From a virus, in the IMG/VR virus record IMGVR_UViG_3300047174_000306, positions 1-23,881 of that record: a stretch of 23,881 nt of DNA; one strand, written 5' to 3'. Position numbers and translations under genes: made by a program. How positions within the stretch are numbered: the first letter of the stretch is position 1; the number at the start of each line of letters is the position of its first letter. Below are positions 4,864 to 23,441 of the stretch, piece by piece. The notes beneath the pieces were generated by a model. The model made no database searches and was not told the origin of the DNA. It saw only the letters and a program-made list of their open reading frames with translations.

Positions 4864-6192
4864 ATGGGTATTGACAGTTTTCCGCTCGCGCTGCAGCCGA
4901 TCATCCAGCAGGGGTTTCTGGAGCGCGAGTTCCAGCAGGCGCTGCGCTCCCGGCTGGGCTACCGGGCCTGTGCGGATCGGGAGGAGTTCGCGGTTGGCAT
5001 TGGCGAGACGCTGACGAAAACCCGGGCCGGATTACGTCCGGCCGTGACGACACCGCTCGCCGGGGCGCAAAATACCAATCTGGATAACGGGCTGACGGCC
5101 GGGACCTGGGGTGTCGAGCAATACACCATTACGCTGAACAACTACGCTTCCACCATGGATCTGAACATGGTGACGAGCCGGGTCGGGATTGCGAGCCAGT
5201 TCCTGCAGAACGCCTATGCCAATGGCGAGCAGGCGGCGCGCAGCCTGGACGACCTGGCGCGGAATGCGTTATTCGGGCCATATTTCGGCGGCAATACGCG
5301 GGTGCGGGTAACGCTTGGGTCCGCCGGGCCCGCGGTGAGCGTGGATGATATCCGCGGATTCCAGAATGCCTTCGTCTATGGCGTGCAGCAGCCGGTTTCG
5401 ACAACCAACCCGCTGACGGTGACGATCGGTTCCAATGTGTATACCCTGATCGGGACCTCCGCCGATAGCACCAATGTTTCGACCACGCCGGGCGGCATTT
5501 CGGGGATTTTGACGCTGTCCGGGAACGTGACGGTGAGCGATGGTACGGCGAATAACACGGTGCAGGCGGCCACCGCATCTTTGATCCTGCGGCCGAATGG
5601 GCGCACGAATACCAGCCAGATCATCAGCACTGACACCTTGGCCATGAGCAATATTCTGGATGCCGTGGCGAATCTGCGGCTGAATGCGGTGCCCGATATC
5701 GAGGGGTCGTATAATTGCTACCTTGATCCGATCAGCGCGCGGCAGTTATTCGCTGATCAGGATTTCCAGCGCCTGTTCATCGGTTTGACGTCGGCCAACG
5801 AGGTGTTCAAGCCGGGCCAGGGTGTGGTGAATGAGTTCCTGGGCCTGCGGTTCGTGCTGACCAACGAGGCGTTTGTGCAAGCCTCCACCTCCGTGCCTGG
5901 GGCGATGATCCGGCGGCCGATCGTGGTTGGGCAAGGCGCGCTGATCGAAGGCGACTTCGCGGGCATGGCGGCGGAGGACGTGGCGCCGGCGGATTCGATC
6001 ATCTCCATGGTGGATAATGTCTGCATGGTGACGCGGGAGCCGATCGACCGGCTGCAGCAGATCATCGCGCAATCCTGGTATTGGATCGGCGGGTTCTGCG
6101 CGCCTTCCGATACCACCACGACGAACCTGACGGTGGCGACGGCAACCAACGCCAGTTTCAAGCGCGCCGTGATGATCGAGCATATCGGGTAA
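4864..6192 (+). CDS. Major capsid protein
   Basis: A 442-residue protein in the capsid position after the scaffold. The N-terminus 'MGIDSFPLALQPIIQQGFLE' and the segments 'LRPAVTTPLAGAQNTNLDNG', 'EQYTITLNNYASTMDLNMV' and 'ANGEQAARSLDDLARNALF' look like the N-arm and spine helix of an HK97-fold coat. The late part 'NCYLDPISARQLFADQDFQR' and 'GQGVVNEFLGLRFVLTNEAF' fits the A-domain of P22/T7-like capsid proteins. Residues about 175-252 are a Thr/Ser/Val-rich beta insert that may be an Ig-like or I-domain decoration. I chose ATG 4864; ATG 4852 (four more residues) is possible, and neither has a strong Shine-Dalgarno. It forms the icosahedral shell. Confidence 0.8.
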   Translation: MGIDSFPLALQPIIQQGFLEREFQQALRSRLGYRACADREEFAVGIGETLTKTRAGLRPAVTTPLAGAQNTNLDNGLTAGTWGVEQYTITLNNYASTMDLNMVTSRVGIASQFLQNAYANGEQAARSLDDLARNALFGPYFGGNTRVRVTLGSAGPAVSVDDIRGFQNAFVYGVQQPVSTTNPLTVTIGSNVYTLIGTSADSTNVSTTPGGISGILTLSGNVTVSDGTANNTVQAATASLILRPNGRTNTSQIISTDTLAMSNILDAVANLRLNAVPDIEGSYNCYLDPISARQLFADQDFQRLFIGLTSANEVFKPGQGVVNEFLGLRFVLTNEAFVQASTSVPGAMIRRPIVVGQGALIEGDFAGMAAEDVAPADSIISMVDNVCMVTREPIDRLQQIIAQSWYWIGGFCAPSDTTTTNLTVATATNASFKRAVMIEHIG

Positions 6193-8270: not shown

Positions 8271-9839
8271 ATGACCATCTATCAGCAAGGCACGATCAAT
8301 ACCGGAGCGCTGGTGGTGCCGGACCTGTATGTGCAGATCGTGGCGCCGCAAAATCTGGTGCTGAACGGGGTGCCAACGAACCTGATCGGCGTTGTCGGCA
8401 CGGCGAGCTGGGGGCCGGTCAATCAGCCGGTGGTCGCGGGATCGATGGCCGATTACGGGGCGGCGTTCGGGCCGGTGATCGCGCGGCAATACGACATGGG
8501 CACGCAGGTTGCGACCGCCGTGCAGCAGGGAGCTTCGGGCTTTCGGTGCGTGCGGGTGACCGACGGCACCGATACCGCCGCGAGCTATGCCATTGGCTTC
8601 AACAACGGCACCTATGCCGCGCTGCTGACGGCGCGGTATACCGGGTCGCTCGGCAACAAAATCACCTTCTCGATTACCGGCGGATCGCAGGCCGCGACCC
8701 TGAAGCTGACGGTGGCCATGCCGTCGATGTTGCCGGAGGTCTATGACAACCTGCCGCAAACCACGCCAGCAACGTTCTGGGCGGCGCTGGTGAGCGCGGT
8801 CAACAATGGCACCGGACCGCTACGGGGGAATTCCCGGCTGATCGTGGCGACGCCTGGATCGGCCAACACGACGACGCCGACTCCCACGACCCAACCGGTG
8901 ACGCTGCTTGGTGGGACCGACGGGGCGGTCGCGATTACCGCGGCGACACTGGTTGGCCAGAATGCGATGCCGAGGACGGGGATGTATGCGCTGCGCGGGC
9001 AGGGCTGCAGCATAGGGTTGCTGGCCGATACGGTCGATCCGACGCAATGGGTGACGCAGGCGTTGTTTGGCGAGTCGGAAGGGGTCTATATGATATTGAC
9101 CGGGCCGCCCGGGGACACGATCGACAATGCCCCTATGGTCAAGCAGCAGAGCAGTCTGGATTCGACATCCGCGAAACTGATGTTCGGCGATTGGATCTAT
9201 TGGTCCGATCAGACCAATGGCATGATCCGGATTGTGTCGCCGCAGGGGTTTGTTGCCGGGCGGCTTGGCAATTTGTCGCCGGAGCAGTCCAGCCTGAACA
9301 AGCCGCTGTATAGCATCATCGGCACACAGAAATCGGGTGTGCCCGGTAGCGGCCAGGTGGCGACGTACAGCGATGCGGAACTGCAGCAGCTGTTCGAGGC
9401 GGGCATCGACGTTATCTCCAATCCGCAGCCGGGGGGCGCTTATTGGGGGGTGAGATGCGGACATAACACGTCCAGCAACCCCGCAGTGGACGGCGACAAT
9501 TACAGCCGGATGACGAATTTCATCGCCGCAACGCTGGCGGCCGGCATGGGACCGTTTGTCGGGCAGGTGATCAATGGCCAGTTGTTCCAGCAGATCCGGG
9601 CAACGCAGCTGAGCTTCCTGCAGAATTTGTTGGCGCAGGGCATATTGGGGCTGAATGGCACCGGGCAGTTGCCGTTCTCGGTGATTTGCGACGGCACCAA
9701 TAACCCGCCGAGCCAGACCAGCTTGGGCTATGTGCAGAGCGACGCGCAAGTGCAGTATCAGGGCATTAACGAGAAATTCATCGTAAATGTCGAGGGCGGC
9801 CAGACCGTGGTCGTGCAGCAGCAGATACTGCCGAGTTAG
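8271..9839 (+). CDS. Contractile tail sheath protein
   Basis: A 522-residue protein with AAGGAG eight bases before its ATG. The N-terminus 'NLVLNGVPTNLIGVVGTASW' with the following 'GPVNQPVVAGSMADYGAAFG' is the classic sheath opening (GV-x-T...G-x-x-GTA-x-WGP-N-P...). The central part has 'LLGGTDGAVAITAATLVGQN' and 'PSQTSLGYVQSDAQVQYQGI', and the C-terminus 'KFIVNVEGGQTVVVQQQILP' forms the handshake domain that joins the tube. This shows the phage is a myovirus. The sheath wraps the tube encoded at 10001 and contracts on infection. It corresponds in position to phage P2 gpFI. Confidence 0.92.
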   Translation: MTIYQQGTINTGALVVPDLYVQIVAPQNLVLNGVPTNLIGVVGTASWGPVNQPVVAGSMADYGAAFGPVIARQYDMGTQVATAVQQGASGFRCVRVTDGTDTAASYAIGFNNGTYAALLTARYTGSLGNKITFSITGGSQAATLKLTVAMPSMLPEVYDNLPQTTPATFWAALVSAVNNGTGPLRGNSRLIVATPGSANTTTPTPTTQPVTLLGGTDGAVAITAATLVGQNAMPRTGMYALRGQGCSIGLLADTVDPTQWVTQALFGESEGVYMILTGPPGDTIDNAPMVKQQSSLDSTSAKLMFGDWIYWSDQTNGMIRIVSPQGFVAGRLGNLSPEQSSLNKPLYSIIGTQKSGVPGSGQVATYSDAELQQLFEAGIDVISNPQPGGAYWGVRCGHNTSSNPAVDGDNYSRMTNFIAATLAAGMGPFVGQVINGQLFQQIRATQLSFLQNLLAQGILGLNGTGQLPFSVICDGTNNPPSQTSLGYVQSDAQVQYQGINEKFIVNVEGGQTVVVQQQILPS

Positions 9840-10000: not shown

Positions 10001-10429
10001 ATGCCAATAAATTCCTTCAATATCGGCCGCGACTGCCAACTTGTCGTCATGGGCCCGCAGGGCCGGGTCGATTTGACCTATGTGACCGGTTTCGAGAGCC
10101 GGCAGGTGACGCAATCGGTGCGGCTCGACCGCCTGGACGGCGTGCCGATGGGTGCGGAACTGCCGAAAGGCTGGGAGGGCAGCTTCGACGTCGAGCGGGG
10201 AACGAGCAGCATCGACGACTTCATGGCGGCAGCGGAACAGGCATTCTTCACGCAAGGATATCTGCCGGCTGGGACGGTGTACCAGTATGTCCAGGAAGTC
10301 GATGGCTCGACCTCCACGTATCAGTATAGCGGCGTGGTGTTCAAGGTGAGCGATTCCGGGACGTGGCGGGGCGATGCTGCCGTGAAGCAGAGATTGGAAT
10401 TCTTTGCGACGCAGCGGCAGCGGATCTGA
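10001..10429 (+). CDS. Tail tube protein
   Basis: A 142-residue protein starting at ATG 10001, with AGGAAAG at 9986-9992 upstream. It is beta-rich: 'NSFNIGRDCQLVVMGPQGRV', 'VTGFESRQVTQSVRLDRLDG', 'KGWEGSFDVERGTSSIDDFM' and 'GVVFKVSDSGTWRGDAAVKQ'. This is the length and pattern of the short contractile-tail tube family that stacks as hexameric rings inside the sheath. It corresponds to phage P2 gpFII by position. It ends two bases before the tail assembly chaperone start. Confidence 0.85.
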   Translation: MPINSFNIGRDCQLVVMGPQGRVDLTYVTGFESRQVTQSVRLDRLDGVPMGAELPKGWEGSFDVERGTSSIDDFMAAAEQAFFTQGYLPAGTVYQYVQEVDGSTSTYQYSGVVFKVSDSGTWRGDAAVKQRLEFFATQRQRI

Positions 10430-10431
10430 CC

Positions 10432-10773
10432 ATGACGCCATCGGGACGATTACTCGCCGAGGCGGGCCGCAGCCATACCGCGATCGATGCCGCCGGCCGG
10501 ACGCTGACGTTTCGACGGCTCGATGCGCTCGACCGGCTTCGGCTGTTCAAGGCGCTGGGGGCGGAACTTTCGCTGAATGCACCGTATCTGGGCATGGCGC
10601 TGCTGGTGTGTTCGGTAACCGCCATCGACGATGTGCCGGTGCCGCCGCCGGTGACCGAGGAGCAACTGGAGTCGCTCGCGCGCCGGCTGGGCGATGAGGG
10701 AATTGCGGCGATTGCCGACGCGCTGGATGCGGCGGAACGGACGGAGGCTGGCACGGCCGCGTTGGGAAACTGA
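10432..10773 (+). CDS. Tail assembly chaperone, short form
   Basis: A 113-residue protein ending ...ALGN then TGA. Residues 1-30 hold 'AIDAAGRTLTFRRLDALDRL', the usual opening of P2 gpE/lambda gpG-type tail assembly chaperones ('...G...L-x-x-R-x-LDALDR-x-RLFKA-G'). The middle is a hydrophobic helix 'LGMALLVCSVTAIDDVPVP', followed by an acidic helical tail 'EEQLESLARRLGDEGIAAI'. It lies between tube and tape-measure genes, as expected. The last three codons before the stop are TTG GGA AAC, creating the slippery heptamer that yields a longer product. Such proteins coat the tape-measure protein during tail growth and are absent from the virion. Confidence 0.8.
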   Translation: MTPSGRLLAEAGRSHTAIDAAGRTLTFRRLDALDRLRLFKALGAELSLNAPYLGMALLVCSVTAIDDVPVPPPVTEEQLESLARRLGDEGIAAIADALDAAERTEAGTAALGN

Positions 10774-10940
10774 GCGGGCACGCCGATCTGGTCGATAGTT
10801 TGTACCTGGTCCGGAACGGCGTGCCGTTTGATGTGGCGTTTGCCTTGCCGGCCTCCGACCGCCTGGCCTGGGTCGTCGCATTGGGACAACTCGACGGGTG
10901 CGTTTTCGACTGGCCGTCGATGTCTTGGCGCAGTGATTGA
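10432..10940 (+). CDS. Tail assembly chaperone, -1 frameshifted long form
   Basis: A predicted 169-residue fusion made by -1 slippage at 10764-10770. After the slip, reading resumes with CTG at 10770 and continues 56 codons to TGA 10938-10940. The extension contains 'DSLYLVRNGVPFDVAFALP' and 'LAWVVALGQLDGCVFDW', a conserved-looking stretch typical of the C-terminal half of P2 gpE' and of lambda gpT-like extensions. No start codon with a ribosome site opens this frame by itself, so frameshifting is the likely route. By analogy with lambda gpGT and P2 E+E', the long form should bind the tube subunit while the common N-terminus binds the tape measure. The slip is predicted, not measured. Confidence 0.8.
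10764..10825 (+). promoter_or_regulatory. Programmed -1 frameshift signal (slippery site plus stem-loop)
   Basis: The heptamer G GGA AAC (10764-10770) lies exactly in the required phase, immediately before TGA 10771-10773. Six bases further on begins GGCACGCCG (10777-10785), which pairs perfectly with CGGCGTGCC (10817-10825) across a 31-base loop. Slippery heptamer, stop, short spacer and stimulatory stem-loop all fit known -1 signals such as that of lambda G-T. Confidence 0.85.
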
Positions 10941-18650: not shown

Positions 18651-18663
18651 GAGGCGATTGCCT

Positions 18664-21141
18664 ATGCCCACGATCGACGAACTGCCGCCTGCCGTCTCGG
18701 TCAGCGACACTGACGAGTTGGTAGTTTCGCAATCCGATATCGCACGGAGCGCGACCCGGGCACAATTATTGTCGGGCGTGCAGCCGGCTTTGGCGTTGCC
18801 TTCTGGGAGTTTGCTGGGGCGATTGAGCGCTGGGGTTGGCGCGCCAGAGACGATCACGATCGGCGCCAACTTGATCGTGGGTAATGGGACCCTGAGTTCG
18901 CCGGCACCGTTCCTGATCGATGGTTTGCCCACGGGCGGCAATCCCATGCCGAATGACCAGGTGCCAATCGGCCAAGGCGGACAGAATGCCGCTTTGTCCT
19001 ATGCGAGTTTCATGGCGGGCATTGGTTCACTGCCGGGCATCAATGGGTCCGCCATCAATGTGACTGCATCGGGCGGGACGATCGCGCGCACGCTGGCCGG
19101 TCTGTTCGCGGATGCGTTAAGCATTGAAAGTTTTGGCGCGGTTGGGGACGGGGCGACCGATGACACCGCGGCGTTTGTCGCGGCTGCCGCGAGCGGACGG
19201 CCGCTGCGGCTCGATGCACGCATCTACATTGTGAACGGGCCGCTGACCTTCGCCGCGGCCACCGCCATTGTTGGCGTGCCCGGATCGACGATCATCCGCC
19301 GCGCGAGCCTGGTGGAGGCGCCGCGTTGGATCGAGGTGTCGGGCGGAACCTTCGTGGCCGACGGCATCATCTTTGATGCGGGCGGGTTGGCTGGCGTGGA
19401 TATCCCAGCGGTGGCGATCGATTCCAGCTGCACCGGAGCGTGCATTTTCCGATCCGGCTTCATCAATGCCATCGGCCCGGTCTCGGGCTGCGGGCTTGCC
19501 ATTAGCAGTGGCACAGGTGTGGCCTACGAGCTGCGAGGCTGTCATTTCAGCGCAAATGCGTTGCATGGCCTGAGCGTGACGGGCAGTGGGACGGTTCTGC
19601 TTGAGGCCTGCAGCGCCGGCGGCAATGCAGGATGTGGGATTTACGTGCAGTCCGGCGTGTCAGCCATCCTGCGGGGGAATAGCGGCACGGCCAACAGCAT
19701 TGGTGCGAGTATTGGAAGCTGGAGCGTGGGTGCGGCACCGAGTTCCACTGGACCGACCTGCATGGTGACCGATAACGTATTTACCGAAAACACGACATGG
19801 GGGCTTGCGGTCGCGGCGGTCGGCGCAATCATCGATGCGAACTCGCTGCAGAATAACGGCACTGCAGTGATCGGCGGCGGCCTGCTCGGCCGGCTCGGCG
19901 CCAGCCGTGTGAGCAACACCGTCATTGTTGGCGGCGCCTGCGGCATTGATGCGCGCGGAAGTTGGGGGAGTGTCGTTTCCGGCTGCCATGTGTCGGGCAC
20001 CTCCACGGCGGTTCTGTGCGGCGGTAGCCAGAACGTGACCGTCGATGGCAATGTGCTGTTGATGAACGGCTGGGGCGTCGTGGTTTCCGCGATCGAGCCA
20101 ACGCTGTCCGCGATCCCGACGGGCCCGCTGACGATCAGCAGCAATTGGATAGGGTTTACGACCGCTCAGGGTGGTGGCATCCGGGTGCAAGACGCGGCGC
20201 AGGGAATTGCCGTTGTCGGGAATGACCTGCACGGCTGGGGCAGCGCGATTGTCAACCAGGCGATCTGGCTGCACACAGATGCGGCGGTCTTGCAGGGGAA
20301 TCGCTGGAATAACCAGGCGCAGTTCAGCGTGCAGGCAAACCCGGTGGCAAACTTGGAAGCCTTGGTGGTCCCGGACGTGGCCGACGAGGTGCTGGTGACG
20401 GCCGCGCCGGCGCCAATCGCCTCGGTATTGACCAGCCATCAGGCCGATACGCTTGGGCAGATCGCGTTCATCAAGGTCACTGCTGGCGGCAGCGGCTTCA
20501 CGCAGGCCCAGGTCGCGATTGCGGGCTCTGGCACCGGGGCGGCCGCTACGGTGGTGGTCAATGATGGTGCAGTCGCCTGGATTATTGTGACAAATCCGGG
20601 CTCGGGCTATGGGGCGATTGGGAGCGCTGCGCCGGTGACGGTGACCGGCGATGGCAGCGGTGCTACGGCGGCGGCGTCTGTCGGCCTTCCTGTCCTGGCA
20701 GGTCGGCGACTCCGGCTGAACTGCAATTGCCAACTGCAGCTTGCCTTATCCGGCGCCTCGCCGCCACAGCAGAGCTGGACAGGATATCAGTCCACCGTGC
20801 CTGCTTTCGCGGTGATGGAGCTTGAGGGCGTCTTCGGCACTTGGCGGGCGGTTGCATTTCCGCCGGTGGATTATCTGGCACCAGACGGGGTTGGCGGTGC
20901 GGTGCTGCAGAGCGTTGGGACAGGAAATCTCGTGCTGAAGCCGGCCAGCGGCGGGGCACTGTATTTCACGAATGCCGCCGAACCCGTTGGCTGCACGTCC
21001 ACGGTCGGGCGGGGTTCGCCGCTTGGCGTGATCGCTGCGCCGCCTGGATCAGAATTCCGCAACCTCAATGGCGGCGTTGGAACCACCTTCTGGGTAAAGC
21101 AGGCGAATAACGATGCCACCGGTTGGGCAGCAATCGGGTAA
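18664..21141 (+). CDS. Pectate-lyase-fold tailspike 1
   Basis: An 825-residue receptor-binding protein; ATG 18664 with GAGAGG upstream is chosen over TTG 18658. Residues 1-75 form an adaptor ('MPTIDELPPAVSVSDTDELV', 'SLLGRLSAGVGAPETI') shared with the next gene. At about 154-185 comes 'SIESFGAVGDGATDDTAAFV', the entry motif of pectate-lyase superfamily beta-helices (F-G-A-x-GDG-x-x-DD-T-x-A). A long parallel beta-helix follows to about residue 560, with stacked Asn/Gly/Ser turns such as 'CSAGGNAGCGIYVQSGVSAI'. Around 597-672 lies a different module with 'TAGGSGFTQAQVAIAGSG' and 'NPGSGYGAIGS'. It probably binds or cleaves a surface polysaccharide. Catalytic acids cannot be assigned by eye. Confidence 0.85.
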   Translation: MPTIDELPPAVSVSDTDELVVSQSDIARSATRAQLLSGVQPALALPSGSLLGRLSAGVGAPETITIGANLIVGNGTLSSPAPFLIDGLPTGGNPMPNDQVPIGQGGQNAALSYASFMAGIGSLPGINGSAINVTASGGTIARTLAGLFADALSIESFGAVGDGATDDTAAFVAAAASGRPLRLDARIYIVNGPLTFAAATAIVGVPGSTIIRRASLVEAPRWIEVSGGTFVADGIIFDAGGLAGVDIPAVAIDSSCTGACIFRSGFINAIGPVSGCGLAISSGTGVAYELRGCHFSANALHGLSVTGSGTVLLEACSAGGNAGCGIYVQSGVSAILRGNSGTANSIGASIGSWSVGAAPSSTGPTCMVTDNVFTENTTWGLAVAAVGAIIDANSLQNNGTAVIGGGLLGRLGASRVSNTVIVGGACGIDARGSWGSVVSGCHVSGTSTAVLCGGSQNVTVDGNVLLMNGWGVVVSAIEPTLSAIPTGPLTISSNWIGFTTAQGGGIRVQDAAQGIAVVGNDLHGWGSAIVNQAIWLHTDAAVLQGNRWNNQAQFSVQANPVANLEALVVPDVADEVLVTAAPAPIASVLTSHQADTLGQIAFIKVTAGGSGFTQAQVAIAGSGTGAAATVVVNDGAVAWIIVTNPGSGYGAIGSAAPVTVTGDGSGATAAASVGLPVLAGRRLRLNCNCQLQLALSGASPPQQSWTGYQSTVPAFAVMELEGVFGTWRAVAFPPVDYLAPDGVGGAVLQSVGTGNLVLKPASGGALYFTNAAEPVGCTSTVGRGSPLGVIAAPPGSEFRNLNGGVGTTFWVKQANNDATGWAAIG

Positions 21142-21170: not shown

Positions 21171-23441
21171 ATGCCCACAATTCCCCAGCTTCCACCCGCG
21201 ACATCGTCAGGCGCGACCGACGAATTTCCGGTGAGCCAGAGCGGCATTACCCGTTCCGTGACGGTGGCAGAAGTTCTGGCCGGCACGCAGCCGGCGATCG
21301 AGATTCCGAGTGCCACGTTGCTTGGCCGGGTTTCACTCGGACCTGGCGGTCCGGAGCCGGTGGCTGTCAATACCGGCCTGGTGATCGCCAACGGGGCCAT
21401 TGCAGCCAATGGTGGCGACCACGCGGGTTTCGTTTTAGAAAGCGCGCTGAATATCAATGATCAGGCGATTGTCAATTCCGCTGGCACGCCATCGCGCCTG
21501 CCCTTGCCCTTGTTGCGAGGATTGTTCACGGCCGGTCAGAATGTAACGATTGATAATTCGGGAGACACATCGGCCAGCACCGACCCGTCTGTTACATCGG
21601 AACTTGCGTCGCTGACCAGCGGGCTCAGCACGACCGAGGCAAATCTGGCAGCTTTGGCGGCGTTGGTGCCGACCGGCGGGTATGTCTCGCTCAACAGCCA
21701 GGGCGAAATCACGGCGCCGACCGCTGGCCCAGTCACGCTTGGCACGGTCCAGGTGGCGGCGAGCGCGCCCGCACGAACATTACAGTCGATAGTCCTGGAT
21801 ACCGTCAATGTTGTAGATTTCGGCGCGACAACGACGGGGGCCGACTGTACCGCCGCGTTCAATGCGGCCTTCGCGGCTCTGCCCAGCACCGGCGGTGAGA
21901 TCTTCATACCTGCGGGCGATTATCAGCTATTTAGCAGTTTGATCTGGTCGGGTAAGCCGTTTACCGTTCGCGGCGCCGGCAAGGCCATCACGCGGTTGCA
22001 TCTGCAGCATACCGGGATCGGCTTCGACATCTCGCAGACCGTGGCTACGAACCGGGTCGTCTTGAGAGATTTTTCCGCATACGCTGAGAACCTGACTGGG
22101 CAGACGGAAGCGGTTGCGCGGCTGGTCTACCCGGCCGCCACGTCATTCGGCTATGTCACGGCCTTCATCACCGATATCGAGTGCTTCGGCTATCCTGGTG
22201 CGGCCAGTGGAACGTCGCCATTCCCTCAGACGTTCTATCGCGGGTTCATCCTGAATAATTGCTGGAGCGTGCAGATAAATAACATCAGCTGGTTCGGTCC
22301 GAACGCGACGGCGGGGACCTCCAGCTCGGCAGTTATCGAACTCAACGAAGCCTTCGATACCAGGATCGCCGGCCTGCAGGCCTATTACGGCCATGCCGCG
22401 GTGATCCAGACCGGCTACTGCGAGGGAATCTACTTCACCAATCCGTTGATTGTGGGCCTGGATTACCTTTTCACCCAAACTGACATTACGCAGTGGCCCG
22501 GCTATACGCCGACCCGCCAGATGCTGCTCGGCCTGTGGGCTGCCAATGGTGAGGTCAACACGAATCTCGGGACGGTTCACGCATCGGCCGTCGGCATTGG
22601 GTTCTTTGTCGGCCTGGACATCACGCGCGACGGAGGACCGAATACCGCTCAGTCCCTGTTCAGCCTGACCAATGTCTCCTCCTTCTTCATTATTGGATGC
22701 AACTTCATCGGTGGGCCTTCGAACGGCAATAACCAGGACATAGTTTTCAACTTCACGAGCACATTCAATTCGTCCGGGAACGTGATTGGCGGATGCACGT
22801 TCCAGAACATGGCGACGATCATCAATATCGGCGCGTCGAACAGCACGGTGGGTTTGACGACCTTCGGCCTCAACCCGAGCAATGTTCCACTTGGCACGGC
22901 GTTCATCGATAACTCCGCCGCCAGCAACGGCAACATGATTGTTTTTCAGTCGCCGGCGACAAGCACAGCGCCGTCAGGGATCGCCAACACCAAGGACCAT
23001 CTGTTTACCGCCGCGGATGGTTCTCCGCTGCTTCGGATCAATTCCGTTCCTGGCGCACGGAATTTTATCCGTACCCAAGCGGCGGCTTCGGCCATCGCTC
23101 CGACAATCATCTTCGATGGAACGGACACTGCCGTGAGCGGGGTGATCCAGACGAAAGGCGGCTCGTTCTTCATCAACGCTGCCGGCGGAGGCGGCGGAAG
23201 CGGGAACTTGATCAGCTTCTTCAATACCTCGGGCGCGAGTAACTGGATTGAATTCCAGAATGCTACGGCAGGGAACCTCAGCCAGATCACGACGAATGCA
23301 GGCGGGATCAGCGTGCAGCCGCGAGGTGCGCTGTATCTGTCGCCTACCAGCGGTCTTTTCATTCCCAGCTTGCCGACGACCAAGCCCGTGAGCGGATCTG
23401 GGCAGATCTGGAATAATGGTGGCGTCTTGAGCGTAGCATGA
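21171..23441 (+). CDS. Pectate-lyase-fold tailspike 2
   Basis: A 756-residue protein starting at ATG 21171 with AAAGG eight bases upstream, 29 bases after tailspike 1. The N-terminus 'MPTIPQLPPATSSGATDEFP', 'VSQSGITRSVTVAEVLAGTQ' and 'SATLLGRVSLGPGGPEPVAV' is clearly homologous to the first 75 residues of tailspike 1. A linker with a coiled-coil-like 'TSELASLTSGLSTTEANLAA' follows. At about 210-253 comes 'NVVDFGATTTGADCTAAFNA' and 'GGEIFIPAGDYQL', the pectate-lyase-fold entry. The beta-helix body differs from tailspike 1 and is richer in Phe/Asn/Trp/Tyr. The C-terminus 'LPTTKPVSGSGQIWNNGGVL' resembles ends of other tail fibres. It probably recognises another surface glycan. Confidence 0.85.
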   Translation: MPTIPQLPPATSSGATDEFPVSQSGITRSVTVAEVLAGTQPAIEIPSATLLGRVSLGPGGPEPVAVNTGLVIANGAIAANGGDHAGFVLESALNINDQAIVNSAGTPSRLPLPLLRGLFTAGQNVTIDNSGDTSASTDPSVTSELASLTSGLSTTEANLAALAALVPTGGYVSLNSQGEITAPTAGPVTLGTVQVAASAPARTLQSIVLDTVNVVDFGATTTGADCTAAFNAAFAALPSTGGEIFIPAGDYQLFSSLIWSGKPFTVRGAGKAITRLHLQHTGIGFDISQTVATNRVVLRDFSAYAENLTGQTEAVARLVYPAATSFGYVTAFITDIECFGYPGAASGTSPFPQTFYRGFILNNCWSVQINNISWFGPNATAGTSSSAVIELNEAFDTRIAGLQAYYGHAAVIQTGYCEGIYFTNPLIVGLDYLFTQTDITQWPGYTPTRQMLLGLWAANGEVNTNLGTVHASAVGIGFFVGLDITRDGGPNTAQSLFSLTNVSSFFIIGCNFIGGPSNGNNQDIVFNFTSTFNSSGNVIGGCTFQNMATIINIGASNSTVGLTTFGLNPSNVPLGTAFIDNSAASNGNMIVFQSPATSTAPSGIANTKDHLFTAADGSPLLRINSVPGARNFIRTQAAASAIAPTIIFDGTDTAVSGVIQTKGGSFFINAAGGGGGSGNLISFFNTSGASNWIEFQNATAGNLSQITTNAGGISVQPRGALYLSPTSGLFIPSLPTTKPVSGSGQIWNNGGVLSVA

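Follow-up and report, generated by a model that had tools for sequence, protein, structure and literature searches.

The region 10432–10940 of the window, by which we mean the whole stretch of DNA that was analysed (23,881 nucleotides), almost certainly comprises, judging from its sequence and that of its relatives, a tail assembly chaperone gene with one start and two protein products made via programmed −1 ribosomal frameshifting. At the sequence level, comparison with relatives demonstrates the gene layout, the slippery heptamer, the conserved extension in the −1 frame, and selection acting on the heptamer and on a stem downstream of it. Frameshifting in chaperone genes is textbook knowledge for tailed phages.

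Tail operon and frameshift signal

The window is a 23.9-kb virus record with a contractile-tail operon of the P2/Mu type, recognized by gene order and profile matches, and the tailed phage is one of Acetobacteraceae-type bacteria. The genes are ordered as terminase, portal, major head protein, sheath, probable tube, chaperone gene, candidate tape measure, tail and baseplate genes (matching phrog_52, Phage_base_V, and Baseplate_J in profile searches of the window), and a beta-helix tail protein. The chaperone gene sits between the probable tube gene, assigned by position and conservation, and the candidate tape measure gene, assigned by position only, the sheath being identified by profile (Table 1); this sheath–tube–chaperone layout matches annotated phage and prophage loci. 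The candidate tape measure protein is short and rich in Ala, Gly, and Arg, with zero matches in family profile searches; its shortness may reflect a very short tail, or it may be another protein altogether. Two consecutive large genes further on (18658–21141 and 21171–23441) have similar N-termini (MPTI..LPPA....DE..VSQS...RS) and different bodies, the former matching beta-helix families, and probably encode two tail fibres or spikes that share an attachment domain.

Table 1. Coordinates of the frameshift signal and of the neighbouring tail genes in the window.
Feature	Position	Strand	Evidence
Tail sheath protein	8271..9839	+	phrog_23, E 1e-47
Probable tail tube protein, directly 5′ of the chaperone	10001..10429	+	phrog_12993 (function unknown); position after sheath; adjacency to the chaperone conserved
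Zero-frame product (“G”) of the tail assembly chaperone gene, 113 aa, ATG..TGA	10432..10773	+	ORF; phrog_20383; fold model
Slippery heptamer G_GGA_AAC, in phase	10764..10770	+	Sequence; X_XXA_AAN kept in 161/163 junctions of relatives
Zero-frame stop TGA, directly after the heptamer	10771..10773	+	Sequence
Putative stimulatory stem, 5′ arm, 6 nt past the heptamer	10777..10785	+	Complementarity, folding, covariation
Putative stimulatory stem, 3′ arm	10817..10825	+	Complementarity, folding, covariation
Extension in the −1 frame (“T” domain): 58 codons counted from GGG, of which 56 follow the heptamer; long product of 169 aa predicted	10764..10940	+	Open frame, conservation
Candidate short tape measure protein, 380 aa	10979..12121	+	GTG start after AGGAG; position alone

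The short form matches phrog_20383, a family of unknown function (E 4e-20); in Pfam, neither the chaperone nor the extension has a match above the cut-off, and the chaperone has none to the P2 gpE/E′ family. The best match of its AlphaFold model (pLDDT 88) in PDB is the tail assembly chaperone of the siphophage HK97 (2ob9, 10–19% identity), with weak scores both in Foldseek (E 0.026, prob 0.93) and, by that tool's own scale, in VIA-align (Z 4.8, 95 residues, 4.4 Å), followed by YqbN (3klu, VIA-align Z 4.5, also weak). These scores are no more than support for the reading from gene position. The identification as a tail assembly chaperone, made already in the earlier note, agrees with the position and, tentatively, with the modelled fold; it rests on architecture and mechanism and does not place the protein in the family of lambda or P2.

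The zero frame ends with the codons TTG (10762–10764), GGA (10765–10767), AAC (10768–10770), and TGA (10771–10773), so that GGGAAAC lies in the phase G GGA AAC with the stop adjoining it, while the −1 frame stays open up to the TGA at 10938–10940. The two stem arms, GGCACGCCG and CGGCGTGCC, are fully complementary over 9 bp. The phase of the heptamer, the perfect stem and its spacing, and the 56 open codons are all as the earlier note had described them. The predicted RNA fold of positions 10771–10835 has an energy of −30.3 kcal/mol vs. a mean of −20.0 kcal/mol for shuffled sequences (z −3.4), and a search of Rfam yielded zero matches within the window. No other in-phase X_XXA_AAZ heptamer occurs among about 6,860 sites in the remaining coding sequence of the window, and, given also its retention in nearly all sampled relatives, the heptamer is more than a chance occurrence.

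In the proposed mechanism, the TGA at 10771 would halt most ribosomes, yielding the 113-aa form, and a minority of them, with tRNA-Gly on GGA and tRNA-Asn on AAC and delayed by the stem 6 nt downstream, would re-pair on GGG AAA and read the −1 frame to the TGA at 10938, yielding the 169-aa form. The predicted junction is Leu-Gly-Asn-Leu-Ser, with Lys replacing Asn should the P-site tRNA alone slip, ahead of decoding. We infer the slippage, its rate, and the roles of both proteins, the latter by analogy with lambda, whose gpG covers the tape measure protein while the T part brings in subunits of the tail tube, at a ratio of about 30:1 (PMC5009743). By that analogy, the short part would do the coating here, and the T extension the recruitment of tube subunits. 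A weak site combined with a selected stem would suit the low ratio that lambda needs.

Heptamer and extension in relatives

Relatives, many of them derived from metagenome bins, were collected by searching viral contigs with the chaperone and with the tube, and again with a distant extension; the extension was also used to search species genomes as well as records of plasmids and phages. The 163 junctions were sampled by similarity; most were picked via the extension's own motif, and the extension itself served to retrieve the genome and distant sets. Since the bulk of the sample was chosen in this way, the extension is judged fairly only on the set retrieved via the chaperone or the tube, and there the heptamer and an open −1 extension are found in 67 out of 67 distinct regions (in three of them, only to the contig end). 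The alignment of relatives suggested in the earlier note has thus been made: the heptamer is kept in 161 junctions, the stem is retained, and, as far as the contigs run, none of the 67 regions lacks both the heptamer and the extension.

The heptamer is GGGAAAC in 113 junctions, AAAAAAC in 46, AAAAAAT and AAAAAAA in one each, and is missing in two; the exchange of GGG for AAA preserves both re-pairings. The distance from the heptamer to the NGVPF motif of the extension is fixed across relatives, and the protein consensus of the extension is RHPDLxDCLYLVRNGVPFDVAFSL, which bears out the earlier impression of a conserved sequence. The zero-frame stop directly follows the heptamer in 133 of the 163 junctions and is displaced downstream by 18 nt in 24 and by 3 or 36 nt in six; across these sequences, an adjoining stop is common and not essential. 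Comparison also supports −1 as the direction of the shift.

The A-runs of six or seven nucleotides in AAAAAAC and AAAAAAA relatives could also allow slippage of the polymerase rather than the ribosome. However, GGGAAAC, present in the window and 112 other junctions, contains no stretch of more than three identical bases within the heptamer, and polymerase slippage would not be expected to come with a conserved stem placed downstream at the ribosomal spacing, so that a transcriptional origin of the long form is extremely improbable.

Two junctions lack the heptamer. In L172 (positions 4961–5080; alphaproteobacterial, close group), the site reads CAT TTT CCG and the stem is shortened; the U_UUU tetramer is another known bacterial slip motif, and L172 may have switched slip sites. 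In L187 (positions 4961–5080; Rhizobium lusitanum), GGGGGAA followed by TAG takes the place of the heptamer. A second Rhodovastum plasmid prophage (L205:1663–2198) has a chaperone-like gene and the extension frame, with neither heptamer nor good stem at the junction. A further peculiarity is an 81-kb metagenome contig (CAIYCW010000145.1) that carries two tail-module stretches of 10,171 bases (L108 and L109), identical over their full length, in opposite orientation, and about 24 kb apart, representing either a real inverted duplication or an assembly artefact.

In species genomes searched with the extension, the module is almost confined to Acetobacteraceae and other Rhodospirillales (Acidisphaera, Rhodopila, Acidiphilium, Acidisoma). 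More distant relatives in Beta- and Gammaproteobacteria, Pantoea included, have AAC-type heptamers. A search of isolated-phage proteins with the short form gave zero matches; with the extension, it retrieved phiKX1 and phiKX2, two phages of Komagataeibacter. When viral contigs were scanned with the extension from Rhodovastum, only a single locus was gained, identical to a known one.

As the earlier note had anticipated, automated annotation misses the long form. In five annotated relatives, the short form is labelled “hypothetical protein”; the extension is unannotated in the Aquitalea, Rhodovastum, and Paraburkholderia plasmid records, which belong to a collection with incomplete gene tables, and phage phiKX1 (CDS 31738–31917) and the Pantoea plasmid list it as a hypothetical protein of its own. 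The latter two records would fit a separate small protein translated from an internal start, by coupled reinitiation past the zero-frame stop and with no frameshift, and a GTG (Val 19) is available for this purpose in 136 of the 163 loci. That GTG, however, lies 3′ of KLSRHPDL..YLVRNG, the extension's best conserved part, and this part would be left untranslated despite being conserved as protein with free silent sites. Moreover, in 133 of the 163 loci the extension frame has no ATG, GTG, or TTG from the upstream stop to codon 4, that is, no start codon ahead of this best conserved part, and hence access to the extension should come from the zero frame. An internal start also leaves the fixed heptamer and the GGG/AAA exchange unexplained, and we regard it as very improbable compared with frameshifting.

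RNA-level selection on the heptamer and the stem

The codons read at the heptamer in the extension frame are invariant, with Gly encoded by GGG in 114 out of 114 cases and Lys by AAA in 134 out of 134 (the window prefers GGC, 50%, and AAG, 65%, respectively), and the third codon positions of the heptamer are also nearly invariant. Codon entropy is 0.11–0.55 bits in five codons of the stem arms vs. 0.66–2.14 bits in the loop, and reaches 1.77 bits in a Pro codon that ends one base outside the stem, all four codons being used there (65/36/20/15).

The position of the stem is constant over Alpha-, Beta-, and Gammaproteobacteria while its sequence changes (GGCACCCCG/CGGGGTGCC, GAACCCCG/CGGGGTTC, GGGACTTCG/CGGAGTCCC). 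At the pair formed by alignment columns 16 and 60, CG is observed 23 times, AU 18, GC four, and GU once, with zero broken pairs. The covariation score is 0.238 vs. 0.097 after shuffling (reached in 0 out of 500 shuffles) and at most 0.099 for slid versions. The silent base of Val 19 is Watson–Crick complementary to the first base of codon 5, 14 codons upstream, in 157 of 160 regions (0 out of 10,000 shuffles): CAC or CAT occurs with GTG in 132 regions, AAC with GTT in 21, and GAC with GTC in four, leaving two wobble pairs and one mismatch (GAC/GTG), the latter in L172, which likewise lacks the heptamer. As the sequences share history, the shuffle counts are not probabilities, and the argument for selection on the stem is carried by the slid control and by the silent nature of the change.

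The residues encoded by the two arms (R-H-P-D and N-G-V-P) are conserved, and most stem pairs vary little within Alphaproteobacteria, as would be the case if the stem simply reflected conservation of the protein and a low level of slippage came from the heptamer on its own. Yet silent positions in the arms are frozen while neighbouring ones are free, and the silent base of Val 19 tracks codon 5 in 157 of 160 regions; we find the by-product explanation very unlikely. Rather, across many related phages, the comparative data indicate that both the heptamer and the stem are under selection at the RNA level. An upstream Shine–Dalgarno-like stimulator was considered and dropped: SD-like 4-mers are present in only 78 of the 163 loci, and their columns are not conserved.

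Comparison with known systems and the weak slip site

As in lambda gpG/gpGT, a predicted −1 shift at G_GGA_AAN near the end of the chaperone gene adds a C-terminal T domain, and the gene precedes that of the tape measure, a candidate here. The lambda heptamer ends in AAG (tRNA-Lys), whereas the one described here ends in AAC (tRNA-Asn); besides, lambda is a siphophage without a sheath, while here the operon is that of a contractile tail, and no sequence similarity was detected in Pfam. P2 likewise has a contractile-tail operon with the chaperone preceding the tape measure, and a −1 frameshift is annotated for its gpE/gpE+E′ in AF063097; its site, however, reads T_TTT_TTG rather than GGGAAAC or AAAAAAC. 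The earlier description of a lambda-like heptamer in a P2-like tail operon therefore holds for the P2/Mu-type contractile operon and the G_GGA_AAN pattern, but not for the last base, C, which assigns the site to the AAC class, weak in E. coli. The combination is present and not new, as GGGAAAC directly before the chaperone TGA has been predicted for gp18/gp19 of Burkholderia phage KL1 (PMC3483164).

The same heptamers have been predicted at the tail chaperones of Caulobacter phages Colossus (GGGAAAC) and phiCbK (AAAAAAC) (PMC3556154) and of Acinetobacter phage Loki (AAAAAAC) (PMC5313236). The accessible parts of these reports describe KL1, Colossus, phiCbK, and Loki as siphophages and contain no stem analysis; the likeness considered here is one of heptamer and gene type. 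Such heptamers also serve chaperone frameshifts in the haloarchaeal viruses HCTV-1 (G_GGA_AAC) and HCTV-2 (A_AAA_AAC), whose hosts are archaea (PMC5009743). Thus, this type of frameshift is already known, and our comparison contributes evolutionary support for the stem that spans Alpha-, Beta-, and Gammaproteobacteria.

GGGAAAC and AAAAAAC have low efficiency in E. coli; heptamers of the AAC type nevertheless serve insertion sequences, where a low amount of the fusion may be wanted (PMC4066793). Two host-based reasons for the use of AAC were considered. A lack of queuosine in the host tRNA-Asn is unsupported, the tRNA-guanine transglycosylase family being present in 11 out of 11 genomes. Reading of AAG by a separate tRNA-Lys(CUU), whose gene was found in most of the tested Acetobacteraceae hosts, fails as the whole reason, since beta- and gammaproteobacterial relatives use AAC as well, including that of Pantoea, taken here as E. 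coli-type. E. coli-type enterobacteria generally have a single lysine tRNA. This is documented for E. coli itself (PMC5009743).

One possibility, which we put forward with considerable doubt, is a distinct subclass of chaperone frameshifts that would combine a deliberately weak slip site (AAC and never AAG, in any host) with an obligatory covarying stem, the chaperone ratio being set by the RNA structure and not by the heptamer. The loci, where a silent base tracks its pairing partner, form an unusually clean natural data set for tests of the influence of a stem on the frameshift rate at weak slip sites. They also show the long form being dropped or split by gene callers, and on their basis phrog_20383 and its extension, for the most part unannotated, can be given the name of a tail assembly chaperone pair in many Acetobacteraceae and in prophages of Beta- and Gammaproteobacteria.
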